Shown here in pieces: positions 4,064 through 34,481 of a stretch of 47,650 nt of DNA. The notes beneath the pieces are model-generated. The model worked only from the letters and a program-made list of their open reading frames with translations, searched no databases and was not told the origin of the DNA. Origin of the DNA: Opitutales bacterium (GTDB lineage: Bacteria > Verrucomicrobiota > Verrucomicrobiia > Opitutales > UBA953); NCBI GenBank assembly GCA_017546455.1, contig JAFYWY010000087.1, positions 1 to 47,650 of the forward strand, in the 5' to 3' direction. Every line of letters begins with the position of its first letter. Within the stretch, counting starts at the first letter, position 1. The translations under genes and the position numbers were made by a program.

Positions 4064-5686
4064 TCATTGCAATTCTATCAAAGATTTTATTTTGCAACGC
4101 GGAAGCGCGGCGGTGGAAACGCTTAAAAATTCCTGCGGGCGGATGTTGCACCCAGAATCGAGAAGACAGATCGTTTCCCAACCAAGAACATTCGGGGCAA
4201 TGAAGTCTTTTTTCGGATTGTCGCCCACATAGTAAAAATCCGCATCAGGATATTTTTTCATGAAAAATTCATAATTCCGCAAAGACGGTTTCTCCGAACC
4301 AAACTCTTCGGAAATGACGATATTTTCGTCCGAAAAAAATTCTCCTAAGCCAAGGGCTCGGATTTTGTTTCGCTGAGTCAACGAACGCCCGTCGGTGATA
4401 AGTCCGAGCACAACGCCCTGCCTTTTCAGCGTTTCCAATGTTGAACGCGCCCCCTCGGATAATTTCATCCCAACCGGGAAATGTGTGCGGTATTGTGCGA
4501 GCAGATTCTTTACGGGGACGCCAAAACGCGTAGACAGATTTTCAAAAACATTTTCCTCGCGAGAACGCATTTCAAGCATTTCACCGAAAAGATTTTCCGC
4601 TTCAGCCCCGCGCGTTTCCGTGAGCGATTCCGCGATTTCGCGAAATGCGGAGCGCAGGAAATCCGCCTCATTGCAAAGCGTGTCGTCCAAATCGAAAACG
4701 ATGACACGCTTCCTTTCGGGAACGATGATTTCCGCATCATAGCGAAGCATAAGCGTGCTATCGCGCCACGAATCTGAAAAACCGATGCATTCGCCAAGCA
4801 GGTATTCCCGAACAACGTTTCGCGGGAAATTCGCCCCCGCGCCGTAACTCAACGGATATCCGCCGCCGAAACGAGGATTTATTTCGATACCGACGATATC
4901 TCCCGTTTTTTCATTCAGAAAAAATTGCGCACAAATACATCCGACCACGCCCGGAATCTCGGAAAATCGTTCCCGCAAAACCCGTTCGAGAACATTCTTT
5001 CGGGTCCTCCCTTTATTTATTTCTCCGGCGCGAATTTCAATTCGTTCCCGTGGAATGATCGCTTTTATCGCATTGTCCCGCCCGAAATACATATCGACCG
5101 TGTATTCGGAATAAACACGTTTGTCGATGTACTCCATGAATATAAGCTTCGGGTGATTGAGAATTTCCGGAGTCAACTCTTCACGAGAGCGCACCACGAA
5201 CAAGTCCTTACTCAAAGATCCGTCGTAAGGTTTTGCAAAAAACGGGAACGTAGGATTCCGTTTGTCCACAAGTGCGGGAACGCGAATTCCGTGCGATTCG
5301 AAAAAGTTTCCCGTGTTACGCTTATCCCGACAGGTCACAACGAAATCTTCATCCGAAACCAACAAAAATATTCCGACTTCAGCAAAACGTTTTTTCGCAC
5401 GAGCAAGCACAAGCAACTCCGTATCGATTGTCGGAACAACAACACGAATTTCGTTTTCCGTACAAATTTTGAAAAGGCAGTCAATATATGTCTCGTCCGT
5501 CACCCGCGGCACACAAAAGCAACCGTCGGAAATTTGTGCGGCGGGTGACATTTTCGGATTAAGCTCCGTCGCGAAAACTCTACCTTGCGGAAAAACTTTT
5601 TTCAGTTCTGTTTGAAACTCCCGCACGAGCGAAACACGCTTTCCCGCAGAAGAAATTAAAATGTTATTCCGTGTTCCCTCGTTCAT
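4064..5686 (-). CDS. ATP-grasp / HAD phosphatase fusion protein
   Basis: This 540-residue protein joins two enzyme domains. Residues 1 to about 325 form an ATP-grasp carboxylate-amine ligase of the carbamoyl-phosphate-synthase-like group. It has an N-terminal NILISSAGKRVSLV fold, an ATP-binding middle with FFAKPYDGS (about 149-157), and the metal-binding EINPRFGGG (268-276). Residues from about 327 form a HAD hydrolase: motif I FDLDDTL (331-337, nucleophile D332, acid D334), Thr431 in LITDG, Lys466 in GSEKP, and VGDNPKKD (D489, D494). ATP-grasp and HAD genes are often neighbours in surface-polysaccharide loci. Here they sit downstream of a PglE/PglD pair, so a role in attaching an amino acid or similar group to a sugar is plausible but inferred. 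The substrate is unknown. Five CGGGAACG octamers lie in this gene. Confidence 0.8.
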   Translation of the reverse strand: MNEGTRNNILISSAGKRVSLVREFQTELKKVFPQGRVFATELNPKMSPAAQISDGCFCVPRVTDETYIDCLFKICTENEIRVVVPTIDTELLVLARAKKRFAEVGIFLLVSDEDFVVTCRDKRNTGNFFESHGIRVPALVDKRNPTFPFFAKPYDGSLSKDLFVVRSREELTPEILNHPKLIFMEYIDKRVYSEYTVDMYFGRDNAIKAIIPRERIEIRAGEINKGRTRKNVLERVLRERFSEIPGVVGCICAQFFLNEKTGDIVGIEINPRFGGGYPLSYGAGANFPRNVVREYLLGECIGFSDSWRDSTLMLRYDAEIIVPERKRVIVFDLDDTLCNEADFLRSAFREIAESLTETRGAEAENLFGEMLEMRSREENVFENLSTRFGVPVKNLLAQYRTHFPVGMKLSEGARSTLETLKRQGVVLGLITDGRSLTQRNKIRALGLGEFFSDENIVISEEFGSEKPSLRNYEFFMKKYPDADFYYVGDNPKKDFIAPNVLGWETICLLDSGCNIRPQEFLSVSTAALPRCKIKSLIELQ

Positions 5687-5775
5687 GCGGCGCTCCTTCT
5701 CTTGTACATAAAGCGTATTGCATTTGTGTTTTTAACGTAAGACAATTTTAGAAAATCAAAACGAAGGGCATTATC

Positions 5776-6072
5776 ATGGCAAAAAGCGCAACGCTCAGCA
5801 TCCGCATTGAACCCCAAATTAAATCTCAGGCAGAAAAACTTTTCTCGAAGCTCGGCATTTCGACGTCCGAGGCAATGAGTCTGTTCCTGCATCAGTGCGT
5901 GAACGACAACGCCCTTCCTTTCACGCCACACGTCGGACACGCAAGAATCCCCAACGCAGAGACCGTTGCCGCAATGGAGGAAGGCGAATACATACTCAAG
6001 GAAATCAAAGCCGGAAAACGGGAAGCTGACTTTAAAACCGCCGCAGAATTCTTCAAGTCCCTGGAAATCTAA
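5776..6072 (+). CDS. RelB/DinJ family antitoxin
   Basis: This 98-residue protein begins with a ribbon-helix-helix region, ATLSIRIEPQIKSQAEKLFSK followed by LGISTSEAMSLFLHQ. That is the signature of RelB/DinJ antitoxins, which dimerise, bind their own operator and neutralise a RelE-type toxin through the C-terminal half. An AAGGG sequence 8-9 bases ahead of the ATG is a plausible ribosome binding site. The toxin gene follows after one codon in the same frame. The pair is inserted in the opposite orientation between two minus-strand sugar-modification genes, typical of a mobile addiction module. I could not define the operator in the 89-base divergent spacer with confidence. Confidence 0.88.
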   Translation: MAKSATLSIRIEPQIKSQAEKLFSKLGISTSEAMSLFLHQCVNDNALPFTPHVGHARIPNAETVAAMEEGEYILKEIKAGKREADFKTAAEFFKSLEI

Positions 6073-6075
6073 CCC

Positions 6076-6315
6076 GTGCTCGCCCCTTCTCAAGCAACGA
6101 AGCTCAAACGCGACATGAGTGCGTTTAAATTTGTCGTTGAATCGTTGATGTCTGAAATTCCGCTTCCCGAAAAATTCCGCGATCACGCCTTGAGCGGAGA
6201 TTGGCAAGGATTTCGGGAATACCACATTTTGCCGGATTGGCTTTTGATTTACAAAATTGAAGCGGGCATTTTGATTCTTCACCGCACAGGAACGCACAGC
6301 GATCTTTTTCACTGA
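6076..6315 (+). CDS. YafQ-family mRNA interferase toxin, short N-terminus
   Basis: This is a RelE-superfamily toxin that would cut mRNA on the ribosome. The 79 residues align with YafQ and keep the residues important in that family: His in FRDHAL, His in EYHIL, the DW pair, Arg and His in HRTGTH, and Phe near the end. It begins at GTG 6076, after the antitoxin TAA and one CCC codon, and cannot extend upstream in frame. YafQ proteins are normally about 90 residues, so the first strand, about 12 residues, is missing. It may be intact but short, or attenuated. Toxin and antitoxin share a frame, so stop-codon readthrough would fuse them. A CGTTCCCG octamer lies 30 bases after its stop. Confidence 0.85.
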   Translation: MLAPSQATKLKRDMSAFKFVVESLMSEIPLPEKFRDHALSGDWQGFREYHILPDWLLIYKIEAGILILHRTGTHSDLFH

Positions 6316-6386
6316 GCAACTTCGAGTAACGAAATTTAAAAGCCCGTTCCCGCAACAAAACGCCGCAGAATACGCACCCGCACGAA

Positions 6387-7010
6387 CTATTCTATATTTT
6401 TTTTGGGGGGGGCGAACCTCAGTACCCGTGCAGGAACTCCGACGACCACCGCATTGGCAGGAACATCTTTAATGACAACAGCTCCGGCACCGATATAAGC
6501 ATTTTCCCCGACGGAAATTCCTTGGATAATCGTTGCGCCAGCCCCCACCCAAGCATTGCTTCCAACCGAAACGTTTCCGCACAGGGTTACGTGCGGTGCA
6601 ATATGGACAAAATCGCCGATTCGGCAATCATGGTCGACACTCGCTCCCGTATTGATAATGGAATGCGCACCAATCTGAGTATCCACATTAACTAACGCCC
6701 CCGGCATAATCACCGTCCCCCCTCCTATTTTGACGGAAGGAGAAATGACTGCAGAAGGATGAATCGCCGTTGCAAAATTTACACCGCCGCGATCCTCCAA
6801 GAAAGCAACGATTTTACGGCGAACCTCATTTTTCCCGATGGCCACAATCGTTGTTCCTGTAGGAGACTCGCTCCCGCAAAGCACCGGTAAACCAGAAAAC
6901 TCGGAAGCCGCCGCATTGTCATCGCAGATACAATCAACCGCAACACCCTGAGCGCGCAGGATGTCGAGGATGACTTTGGCGTGACCGCCGGCTCCGTAGA
7001 GAAAAAACAT
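6387..7010 (-). CDS. pglD: PglD/NeuD-type sugar O/N-acetyltransferase
   Basis: This 207-residue enzyme has an N-terminal nucleotide-sugar binding domain (YGAGGHAKVILD, residues 5-16; then VAIGKNEVRRKI) and a C-terminal left-handed beta helix of hexapeptide repeats (ISPSVKIGGGTVIMPGALV, GAHSIINTGASVDHDC). His in the VDHDC turn is the expected catalytic base. The closest well-known relatives acetylate the amino group of UDP-4-amino-sugars to give UDP-diacetylbacillosamine (PglD), or act on sialic-acid-like sugars (NeuD). Its ATG directly follows the TAA of the PglE-like gene, so the two are coupled. The last codons consist of a C8 and an A8 run, described separately. The exact substrate is inferred from the neighbouring aminotransferase. 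Confidence 0.82.
   Translation of the reverse strand: MFFLYGAGGHAKVILDILRAQGVAVDCICDDNAAASEFSGLPVLCGSESPTGTTIVAIGKNEVRRKIVAFLEDRGGVNFATAIHPSAVISPSVKIGGGTVIMPGALVNVDTQIGAHSIINTGASVDHDCRIGDFVHIAPHVTLCGNVSVGSNAWVGAGATIIQGISVGENAYIGAGAVVIKDVPANAVVVGVPARVLRFAPPKKNIE
6397..6412. repeat. T8G8 homopolymer tract inside the pglD 3' end
   Basis: The plus strand reads eight T then eight G. On the coding (minus) strand this is C8A8 and encodes Pro-Pro-Lys-Lys near the C-terminus of the acetyltransferase, four codons before its stop. Both runs are long enough to slip during replication. Slippage would only change the tail beyond the last conserved hexapeptide turn, or delay termination. Confidence 0.9.
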
Positions 7011-9119: not shown

Positions 9120-9149
9120 CGGGAACGCAAAATTGAAATTTCGTTCCCG
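9120..9149. repeat. Inverted pair of CGGGAACG octamers between dapA and pilB
   Basis: CGGGAACG at 9120-9127 and CGTTCCCG at 9142-9149 face each other across 14 AT-rich bases, in the divergent spacer (9093-9284) between dapA and pilB. No T-run directly follows on either strand, so it is not a normal terminator at this place. On the dapA side a T6 run comes about 13 bases after the hairpin, which leaves a leader attenuator possible but weak. Apart from this I see no clear promoter in the spacer. Confidence 0.7.
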
Positions 9150-13866: not shown

Positions 13867-14979
13867 ATGGCTAAAACGGACAACTCTTCATCCGGCGGCA
13901 ACGCCAAGAACAAAAAGAAAAACCAGGCGTTCAACAAGAAAATCAAGACGGAACAGCTGACGGTTTTCACGCGCCAGCTCGCCACCCTTTTGCAGGCAGG
14001 TCTGCCGTTGCTCCGCGCGACCCAGATTCTCTGCGAACAGGAACGCGACCCGAATTTCAGAAACGCACTCGAAACGATCTGCGACAACATTCAGTCCGGT
14101 AATTCGCTCTCCGATGCGCTCTCTCAATTCCCGCGCATGTTCGACCGCCTCTACATCAACATGATTAAGGCGGGGGAAGCCGGCGGGGTGCTCGACACCG
14201 TGCTCGACCGTTTGGCGATGTTCCAGGAAAAGTCCGAACGCATCAAGAAGAAGGTAAAGTCCGCGATGGTCTATCCCTGCGTCGTTATCTGCGTCGCCGG
14301 CGTCATCGTTTACCTCCTCCTTACTTTCGTCGTTCCCTCTTTCCAATCCATGATTGCGTCCCAGGGCGGGCAGATGCCGGCACTGACGGAATTCGTCATG
14401 AACATCGGGAACGGTCTGCGCGAGCACTGGTTGCTCACGATCATCGGCTTTGCACTGCTCATCTTCGGCGGGCGCTTCGCGTTCAAAAACCAGAAGGTCT
14501 GCGCAATGCGTGACCGCGCTCTGTTCCGCATGCCCAAGATCGGGACCTTCCTCCAGACCGTTACCGTTTCCCGCTTCTGCCGCACCTTCGGCACCCTGAT
14601 GTCTTCCGGCGTGCCGATTCTGCAGGCCATGAAGATTACGACGGAAACGCTCAACAACATCGTCCTCCAGGAAGCCCTCGAAAAGGTCCACGACCGCGTC
14701 CGCGACGGGGATACGCTCGCCGCGCCGCTCGAACAGGCCAAGGTCTTCCCGCCGATGGTTTGCTCCATGGTGCAGGTCGGTGAAGAAACCGGTCAGCTCC
14801 CGGAAATGCTCAATCGCGTCGCCAACAACTACGACGAAGAAGTGGACAACGCCGTCGGCGCTCTCACGTCCGTCATCGAGCCTTTGCTCATGGTCTTCCT
14901 CGCTATCGTCGTCGGTACCATCGTTATCGCGATGTTCCTCCCGATTATCGACGTCATCAAGAACATGACCGGAGGTTAA
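13867..14979 (+). CDS. pilC: Type IV pilus inner-membrane platform protein PilC
   Basis: PilC/GspF is the inner-membrane platform that couples ATPase rotation to pilin insertion. The 370-residue protein shows the duplicated GspF domain. The first begins FTRQLATLLQAGLPLLRA and contains FPRMFDRLYINMIKAGEAGG. The second begins FCRTFGTLMSSGVPILQA and contains FPPMVCSMVQVGEETGQLPEML. Three hydrophobic segments are visible, about residues 137-160, 180-200 and 340-365. The N-terminus is lysine-rich and probably cytoplasmic. It is the last gene of the pilus operon, which ends at a strong terminator 25 bases later. No pilin, prepilin peptidase or secretin gene is in the window. Confidence 0.94.
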   Translation: MAKTDNSSSGGNAKNKKKNQAFNKKIKTEQLTVFTRQLATLLQAGLPLLRATQILCEQERDPNFRNALETICDNIQSGNSLSDALSQFPRMFDRLYINMIKAGEAGGVLDTVLDRLAMFQEKSERIKKKVKSAMVYPCVVICVAGVIVYLLLTFVVPSFQSMIASQGGQMPALTEFVMNIGNGLREHWLLTIIGFALLIFGGRFAFKNQKVCAMRDRALFRMPKIGTFLQTVTVSRFCRTFGTLMSSGVPILQAMKITTETLNNIVLQEALEKVHDRVRDGDTLAAPLEQAKVFPPMVCSMVQVGEETGQLPEMLNRVANNYDEEVDNAVGALTSVIEPLLMVFLAIVVGTIVIAMFLPIIDVIKNMTGG

Positions 14980-15003: not shown

Positions 15004-15039
15004 AAAAACGTTCCCGAGCCTGCCGCGGGAACGTTTTTT
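15004..15039 (+). terminator. Rho-independent terminator built from two octamers
   Basis: AAAAACGTTCCCG (15004-15016) pairs with CGGGAACGTTTTTT (15026-15039) around a 9-base loop, giving a stem of 13 base pairs with A/T tails. It lies directly after pilC and should work in both directions. The core of each arm is the abundant octamer of this window. Confidence 0.92.
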
Positions 15040-15051
15040 GTTTTATGAAGG

Positions 15052-15104: not shown

Positions 15105-16553
15105 ATGAGCATAAAACTACACGATACGATGTCACGGGAACGCCGCGAGCTGAAACAGGTCTCGCCCGAAAAACCTTTCGGCATGTATTGTTGCGGCCCG
15201 ACGGTTTACGGGCCCGCGCATATCGGCAATTTCCGCACATTTCTTTTGCAGGACGTCCTGCGCCGCACCCTTGAAGTCGACGGCATCAAAGTCCGCCACG
15301 TCCGCAACATTACCGACGTGGACGACAAGACCATCCGCCGCTCGCAGGAAGAAGGCAAGACCCTCGCCGAATTTACCGCCGCGTGGACAAAGAAGTTCCA
15401 CGACGACTGCGCCGCGCTCAACATGCTCCCGCCGCAAGTCGAACCGAGCGCCGTCGAACACATCCCGCTCCAGATCGCGATGATCGAACAGCTCGTCGCC
15501 CGCGGAAACGCCTACGTCGCTCCCGACGGCAGCGTTTACTTTAAAGTTTCCAGCGACCCGCATTACGGCAAACTCGCGCGCCTCGACCGCGACGCCCTGC
15601 GCACGCAATCGACGAATTCGAACGGCGACGCCAATGTCGCCGACGAATACACGCGCGACAATGTTTCCGACTTCGCGCTTTGGAAAGCCCGCAAGCCCGA
15701 AGACGGCCCGAATTTCTGGCAAAGCCCCTGGGGCGAAGGCCGCCCCGGCTGGCACATTGAGTGCTCCGCGATGAGCACGCATTACCTCGGCGAAACCTTC
15801 GATCTGCACGGCGGCGGCATCGACCTCTGCTTCCCGCACCACGAAAACGAAATCGCGCAGGCCGAATGCTCCTGCGGACACCACGACACCTTCGCACAGC
15901 ACTGGTTCCACTCGGCCCACCTCATGGTGGACGGCGCAAAAATGTCCAAGTCGCTCGGCAATCTTTACACGCTCGCCGACCTTGAAGGCAAAGGCTTTTC
16001 CCCGATGGCCGTGCGCTACGCGCTGATTTCCGGGCACTACCGCTCGCAACTCAATTTCACGCTGAAGTCCCTCGACGACGCGACCGCCGCGCTCGAAAAA
16101 ATCGAGAAAGCCGCGCGCAAGCTTCTCGACAAGGCCGGCATCACGCCGGAAGAATTTTCGCAGGATATCACCGTTCACGAGCAAAACACGGCTTGGGGCG
16201 CCTTTGAGCCGGCCTGGACCGCGCTTTGCGACGACCTGAACATCCCCGGCGCCATCGGAAAAATCTTCTCCGCCTTCGCAGAGCTCAATAAAACCGAGCT
16301 GTCGCAAGCGGACGCGGGAACGCAACTCTGCGGGCTCGCCAAAATCCTCTCCGCACTCGGCATCAGGCTCTTCACGAAACAGGAGGCCGCTCCGGCAGAC
16401 ATTCCCGCAGAAATCGTCGCGCTCGGCGAACAGCGCTGGGCCGCGAAGCAGGCGAGAAACTGGGCGGAAGCCGATGCCCTGCGCAACAAGCTCGCGGAAC
16501 TCGGATGGAAGTCGCTCGACCGCAAAGACGGCTACAGCTTAGAAAAAATCTGA
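15105..16553 (+). CDS. cysS: Cysteinyl-tRNA synthetase CysS
   Basis: This class I aminoacyl-tRNA synthetase charges tRNA-Cys. It has HIGN at 39-42 and KMSKS at 279-283. Zinc ligands are expected at Cys30 (MYCCGPTVY) and in GWHIECSAM plus HHENE. At 482 residues it is of standard length. The gene begins a new transcription unit after the pilus terminator, and the DUF374 acyltransferase follows after 5 bases. Two CGGGAACG octamers lie within it (15135, read Arg-Glu-Arg, and 16315). Confidence 0.96.
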   Translation: MSIKLHDTMSRERRELKQVSPEKPFGMYCCGPTVYGPAHIGNFRTFLLQDVLRRTLEVDGIKVRHVRNITDVDDKTIRRSQEEGKTLAEFTAAWTKKFHDDCAALNMLPPQVEPSAVEHIPLQIAMIEQLVARGNAYVAPDGSVYFKVSSDPHYGKLARLDRDALRTQSTNSNGDANVADEYTRDNVSDFALWKARKPEDGPNFWQSPWGEGRPGWHIECSAMSTHYLGETFDLHGGGIDLCFPHHENEIAQAECSCGHHDTFAQHWFHSAHLMVDGAKMSKSLGNLYTLADLEGKGFSPMAVRYALISGHYRSQLNFTLKSLDDATAALEKIEKAARKLLDKAGITPEEFSQDITVHEQNTAWGAFEPAWTALCDDLNIPGAIGKIFSAFAELNKTELSQADAGTQLCGLAKILSALGIRLFTKQEAAPADIPAEIVALGEQRWAAKQARNWAEADALRNKLAELGWKSLDRKDGYSLEKI

Positions 16554-30214: not shown

Positions 30215-30241
30215 CGTTCCCGCAGGCAAGCTACGGGAACG
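30215..30241 (-). terminator. Inverted octamer pair, likely terminator of the TPR gene
   Basis: CGTTCCCG (30215-30222) and CGGGAACG (30234-30241) face each other across 11 bases, between the 3' end of the TPR gene and the start of sufB. On the minus strand the T-run after the stem is weak, so termination may be partial. Confidence 0.55.
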
Positions 30242-34452: not shown

Positions 34453-34481
34453 CGGGAACGGCCGAGGTCAAGCCGTTCCCG
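34453..34481 (-). terminator. Inverted octamer pair after the S9 peptidase gene
   Basis: CGGGAACGGC (34453-34462) pairs perfectly with GCCGTTCCCG (34472-34481) around a 9-base loop. An outer CTTAGC (34441-34446) and GCTAAG (34481-34486) pair is also possible. It sits between the end of the peptidase gene and pta. The T-run is poor, so it is either a weak terminator or an element with another role. Confidence 0.6.

Follow-up and report, generated by a model that had tools for sequence, protein, structure and literature searches.

Here, we provide sequence-based evidence that the hairpin behind the type IV pilus gene pilC in an Opitutales bacterium is probably an intrinsic terminator of the pilBTC transcript, the arms of which have presumably been captured by a genus-specific octamer, CGGGAACG, with the character of a DNA uptake sequence. 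The hairpin lies in a contig stretch of 47,650 nucleotides (the window), which belongs to a genome of 2.15 Mb in 105 contigs (G000). The pilC gene (positions 13,867 to 14,979, plus strand; Pfam T2SSF, E 7e-72) encodes the type IV pilus platform protein and closes a pilB-pilT-pilB-pilC run with T2SSE ATPases upstream by Pfam. Its downstream neighbour on the same strand is cysS for cysteinyl-tRNA synthetase (about 15,105 to 16,553, plus strand; Pfam tRNA-synt_1e, E 1.6e-107), which contains one octamer at 15,135.

The hairpin begins 24 bases behind the pilC stop codon (TAA, 14,977 to 14,979) and extends from 15,004 to 15,039 on the plus strand, with the sequence AAAAACGTTCCCGAGCCTGCCGCGGGAACGTTTTTT. 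Its 5' arm CGTTCCCG (15,009 to 15,016) is a minus-strand copy of the octamer and is preceded by A5; after a gap of 9 nucleotides follows a plus-strand copy CGGGAACG as 3' arm (15,026 to 15,033), which runs through T6 into the T-rich tail TTTTTTGTTTT (15,034 to 15,044, plus strand). The original prediction, according to which the octamer forms a perfect terminator stem behind pilC with arms that are extended octamer copies carrying A5 and T6 tails, is borne out by the exact sequence, as the stem comprises 13 perfect pairs made of the two inverted octamers and A5/T5, with the sixth T unpaired. The predicted RNA fold has a free energy of -17.4 kcal/mol (z -3.9) and was equalled by none of 200 shuffled sequences. 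A 13-bp stem, T6 and a position 24 bases beyond the TAA together give the locus the sequence make-up of an intrinsic terminator. A generic terminator scan returned no match at this hairpin because its loop limit is 8. A search of Rfam at the locus gave no family, and a phage origin of the hairpin was considered and rejected, as no match was found. Once transcribed, such an octamer pair would fold into a GC-rich stem of at least 8 bp directly before a U-tract and thereby release RNA polymerase. Because of the perfect A5:T5 pairing, some of the U-tract can become base-paired within the stem, which counts against termination. Termination at this hairpin and at the octamer pairs described below is nevertheless well supported in silico, and it would work equally if the octamer had another function.

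The octamer is a genome-wide word. It is the most over-represented octamer of the window (43 copies versus 5 expected), ranks first among all octamers in a 442-kb sample taken from G000, and is present in 1,362 copies (665 and 697 by strand) in the whole genome, as compared to 145 copies of the reversed word as control. Six of the seven congeners harbor 5,192 to 6,550 octamers each, i.e., 2.6-3.9/kb, with the maximum in G002 (strands 3233/3317), while the remaining congener, G006, has only 546; the reversed-word control amounts to about 75-145 copies in these genomes. The word is non-palindromic, occurs on both strands and in coding and spacer DNA, and has almost uninformative flanks with only a weak G at position -1. 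Coding octamers exceed synonymous-codon shuffles about 4- to 5-fold in G000 (129/95 observed versus 27/26) and 8- to 10-fold in G002 (273/197 versus 35/21), which indicates that the constraint acts on DNA and not on protein. More than two octamer pairs per genome were found in this genus alone among 286 genomes of the class, and samples of other genera of the family (G008-G012) contained no word near the octamer's density, with top 10-mers at about 0.2-0.5/kb. One of these, G010 (L069-L072), has over-represented words CCCAGGGC and CCCAAAGGGG at a density far below that of the octamer, and the octamer-poor congener G006 has a repeated word of its own, CCACCAACCC (L059-L060, L016). One segment of G000 (C5, 11262-20262; L026) holds about 16 octamers, all on one strand and far denser than in the rest of the genome, and is possibly a repetitive gene.

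Several lines of evidence make DNA uptake the leading reading of the octamer: its density, its overall neutrality to strand, its excess at the DNA level, its restriction to one genus, its absence from O-antigen clusters of one congener, and the competence genes of its carriers. Each arm, on double-stranded DNA, would then be a word recognized in type IV pilus/ComEC-based uptake, similar to the DNA uptake sequence (DUS) of Neisseria and the uptake signal sequence (USS) of Pasteurellaceae. Genes for ComEC, DprA, an HHH_3 (ComEA-type) protein and N-methyl/type IV pilins were present in all eight genomes of the genus; ComEC and DprA are equally common in genera lacking the octamer. Two multi-kilobase octamer deserts in G002 are O-antigen clusters, an observation from few islands of one genome with composition not controlled. 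These deserts (L050, 14009-20000, and L048, 10080-17355) contain mainly genes for glycosyltransferases and O-antigen polymerase/ligase. The octamer contains neither the DUS core (CTG) nor the USS core (GCGG; cores according to PMC12616744) on either strand. Sequence traits of the DUS/USS class are present, namely copy number, occurrence on both strands, DNA-level excess, terminator pairs in one arrangement, and the competence gene set. Taken together, a function as DNA uptake word is plausible, being consistent with these data but not proven by them. The original prediction had held that the hairpin architecture itself strengthens the uptake reading. Its terminator half is strongly supported; for uptake, the hairpin taken by itself says little, since terminator arms can be recruited from any word of high density. 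On balance, we lean towards the view that a genus in Opitutia/Puniceicoccales (Verrucomicrobiota) possesses a third independent DNA uptake sequence system, based on a bare octamer, with genomes that span a natural series from saturation to decay in which the copies in terminators survive longer than those serving uptake. Our literature search for uptake words in Verrucomicrobia found nothing relevant. If true, this third case in another phylum would imply that words of this kind arise again and again in evolution and regularly go on to capture terminators.

It is possible, albeit rather unlikely, that the terminator is instead built from a dense word with a primary role other than uptake, such as a HIP1-like word indifferent to orientation or one that is recognized by a nucleoid protein or a DNA methyltransferase. 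The octamer density in the congeners exceeds the published values considered here for uptake words of Neisseria and Pasteurellaceae, and, unlike the extended USS, the octamer is bare with almost no flanking motif. Cyanobacterial HIP1 is likewise a very dense octamer throughout the genomes of one lineage. However, HIP1, which is linked to CGATCG methylation (PMC6604393), is palindromic, whereas the octamer is not, and restriction to one genus, absence from O-antigen islands in G002 and use in terminators fit uptake words.

A much less probable proposal is that a recombination or segregation word (Chi-like or KOPS-like) forms terminators incidentally. The octamer shares with Chi of Escherichia coli that it is non-palindromic, but the global strand skew is absent from the fragmented genomes of both G000 (665/697) and G002 (3233/3317), and local strand excess along contigs is modest and of both signs. 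To our knowledge, no Chi-type word is paired behind genes.

Pairing is pronounced for the octamer. Among pairs of two octamers separated by a gap of 2-20 bases, the favoured arrangement is CGTTCCCG..CGGGAACG, and the predicted enrichment of inverted pairs was found in the whole genome of G000, with 74 favoured pairs as compared to 7 in the opposite and 5 in the tandem arrangement, and 0 close pairs for the reversed pattern. The respective numbers of favoured, opposite and tandem pairs were 182/61/171 in G002, 146/46/106 in G004 and 15/0/1 in G006. In the dense congeners, close inverted pairs arise partly by chance, so that favoured pairs are properly compared with those in the opposite arrangement, over which they remain in excess (182 versus 61 in G002, 146 versus 46 in G004). 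Pair locations were analyzed in the 442-kb sample, which represents 21% of G000, with gene calls from a home-made caller that make the assignment to spacer or coding DNA approximate. This sample contained 14 pairs versus 0.75 expected from octamer density, with a maximum of 5 in 500 simulations. All 14 were intergenic (0.22 intergenic pairs expected) and faced the 3' end of a gene, seven in convergent, seven in co-directional and none in divergent spacers, in agreement with the anticipated placement behind stop codons. Most of them carry A- and T-tracts on their outer sides. In G002, 8 of 23 sampled pairs were intragenic. Tail-to-tail pairs are flanked on the outside by a mean of 5.0 A in the six bases upstream and 5.0 T in the six bases downstream, as compared to about 1.1 A and 1.6 T around single coding copies. 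The window itself has a second favoured pair, CGTTCCCG..CGGGAACG, with weak tails at 30,215 to 30,241 (minus strand), within a spacer flanked by two minus-strand genes. It also has two pairs in the opposite arrangement, CGGGAACG..CGTTCCCG, to which no strand is assigned: one at 9,120 to 9,149 in a spacer between divergent genes, with no preceding A-tract, and one at 34,453 to 34,481 between two minus-strand genes, without A/T tails.

These placements also bear on whether the inverted pair could be an operator or a mobile repeat (REP/MITE-like) and not a terminator. Both typically feature inverted repeats in spacers, but nothing beyond the octamer is conserved, gaps and inner stems vary, and the pairs stand behind stops and not between divergent genes, with A/T tails on the outside, which leaves this explanation highly improbable.

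A considerable share of terminators uses the octamer. A simple terminator finder rated 70 out of 231 gene ends in G000 as terminator-like, as compared to 3 of 231 in shuffled regions, and 28 of these 70 (about 40%) carry the exact octamer, 18 of them as full pair. Terminator-like ends numbered 28 of 101 in G002, with the exact octamer in 16, and 15 in G004, with the exact octamer in seven; shuffled regions gave 0 in both genomes. A purine bias in the 3' arm of all terminators was also considered as the cause of the favoured arrangement; this is unproven, with only a weak trend, as 36 of 68 non-octamer terminators have more G than C and 23 more C than G.

Comparison of the same site among relatives suggests that the terminator is older than the word. 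Both arms of the hairpin behind pilC are octamers in five genomes of the genus (G000, G001, G004, G005, G007), with a T-tail in the congeners. In G002 one octamer arm is mutated, in G003 two octamers are oppositely arranged and further apart, and in G006 the hairpin is unrelated to the octamer and has a T-tail. In representatives of other genera (G019, G013, G009, G015), different hairpins unrelated to the octamer stand behind pilC, and the terminator at this site thus probably predates the octamer, which would have captured its arms later as it spread. In two other genera (L092, L093, L097, L100, L101, L102, L105), a conserved block, AAAAAGGAGGCGGCTTGCATACCCCTATGCAAGCCGCCTGTTTTTTACTGCTTTATCTTACTTACCCC...CCGTAGGACAAA, lies behind pilC. 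The ordinary hairpins of other genera at this position could also speak for an ordinary terminator that resembles the octamer by coincidence or through amino-acid/codon usage and GC content, but the arrangement bias (74 versus 7), the pair excess (14 versus 0.75 expected) and the 4- to 10-fold excess over synonymous shuffles give this a negligible probability, and simulation and synonymous shuffles reject chance and codon usage as explanations.

In G000, the word appears to be declining. The PilC clade that contains G000 and G006 includes a dense genome (G003), and dense genomes also fall outside this clade. In three-way alignments, 12 octamers present in G003 and another dense congener were missing from G000 and two were present in all three genomes; the corresponding numbers for control octamers were 54 and 28. 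Of the coding octamers in G000, 30 of 46 are kept in dense relatives, as compared to 449 of 3,141 (14%) control octamers. These patterns favour loss of the octamer in G000, although they come from few aligned genes, convergence is possible, and by overall similarity in these genes G000 resembles G003 less than it does the other group. G000 has about 21% of the octamers of G002 (1,362 versus 6,550) but about 55% of its excess pairs (67 versus 121), a higher retention of pairs than of octamers that would be expected if terminator copies were also kept for their function in RNA. Retention of terminator copies is less clear in G006, with 15 pairs among 546 octamers. G000 looks partly decayed for the octamer, with terminator copies that may persist at the RNA level and outlast the rest. 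Both low-density genomes have a second T2SSF gene and 11 pilin-like genes each (G000, C60 and C36; G006, C159 and C62), whereas dense congeners have one and seven, respectively; an extra secretion or pilus cluster correlates with fewer octamers. The presence of dense and sparse genomes within one genus makes gain, decay and terminator retention of the word directly measurable.

At the terminator level, the octamer behaves like DUS and USS, a likeness from sequence that does not extend to a claim of membership in their functional class. The analogy drawn in the original prediction, that inverted uptake sequences double as terminators in Neisseria and Haemophilus, matches the literature. In Neisseria, where ComP is the specific receptor for the word, inverted pairs are found in the proportion 226 versus 5, with 0 tandem pairs (Kingsford et al. 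2007, PMC1852404, Table 5), and about 55% of predicted terminators contain DUS (PMC1852404); the arrangement bias is milder in Pasteurellaceae (50 versus 25), with USS in 17-29% of high-confidence terminators (PMC1852404). Frye et al. 2013 (PMC3630211) report inverted pairs for every genome that carries a DUS dialect, and according to a 2025 paper such discrimination is known only in Neisseriaceae and Pasteurellaceae (PMC12616744). The octamer hairpins share stem, loop, U-tract and position behind the stop codon with standard intrinsic terminators, from which they differ in that the stem is a shared genome-wide word and not gene-specific. Like the USS (AAGTGCGGT), the octamer is a dense word used in terminators with a preference for one arrangement, but the two sequences are unrelated and the AT-rich extended flanks of the USS have almost no counterpart. 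The octamer also differs from the Neisseria DUS (GCCGTCTGAA) in sequence and phylum, lacks an AT-type extended flank, and has an uptake role that is a prediction. Its figures, 74 versus 7 pairs and about 40% of terminators in G000, with up to about 4 copies/kb in the congeners, stand beside 226 versus 5 and about 55% in Neisseria, and with the DUS it has in common a dense word, one favoured inverted arrangement, outer A/T tails, and a location mostly in tail-to-tail spacers.
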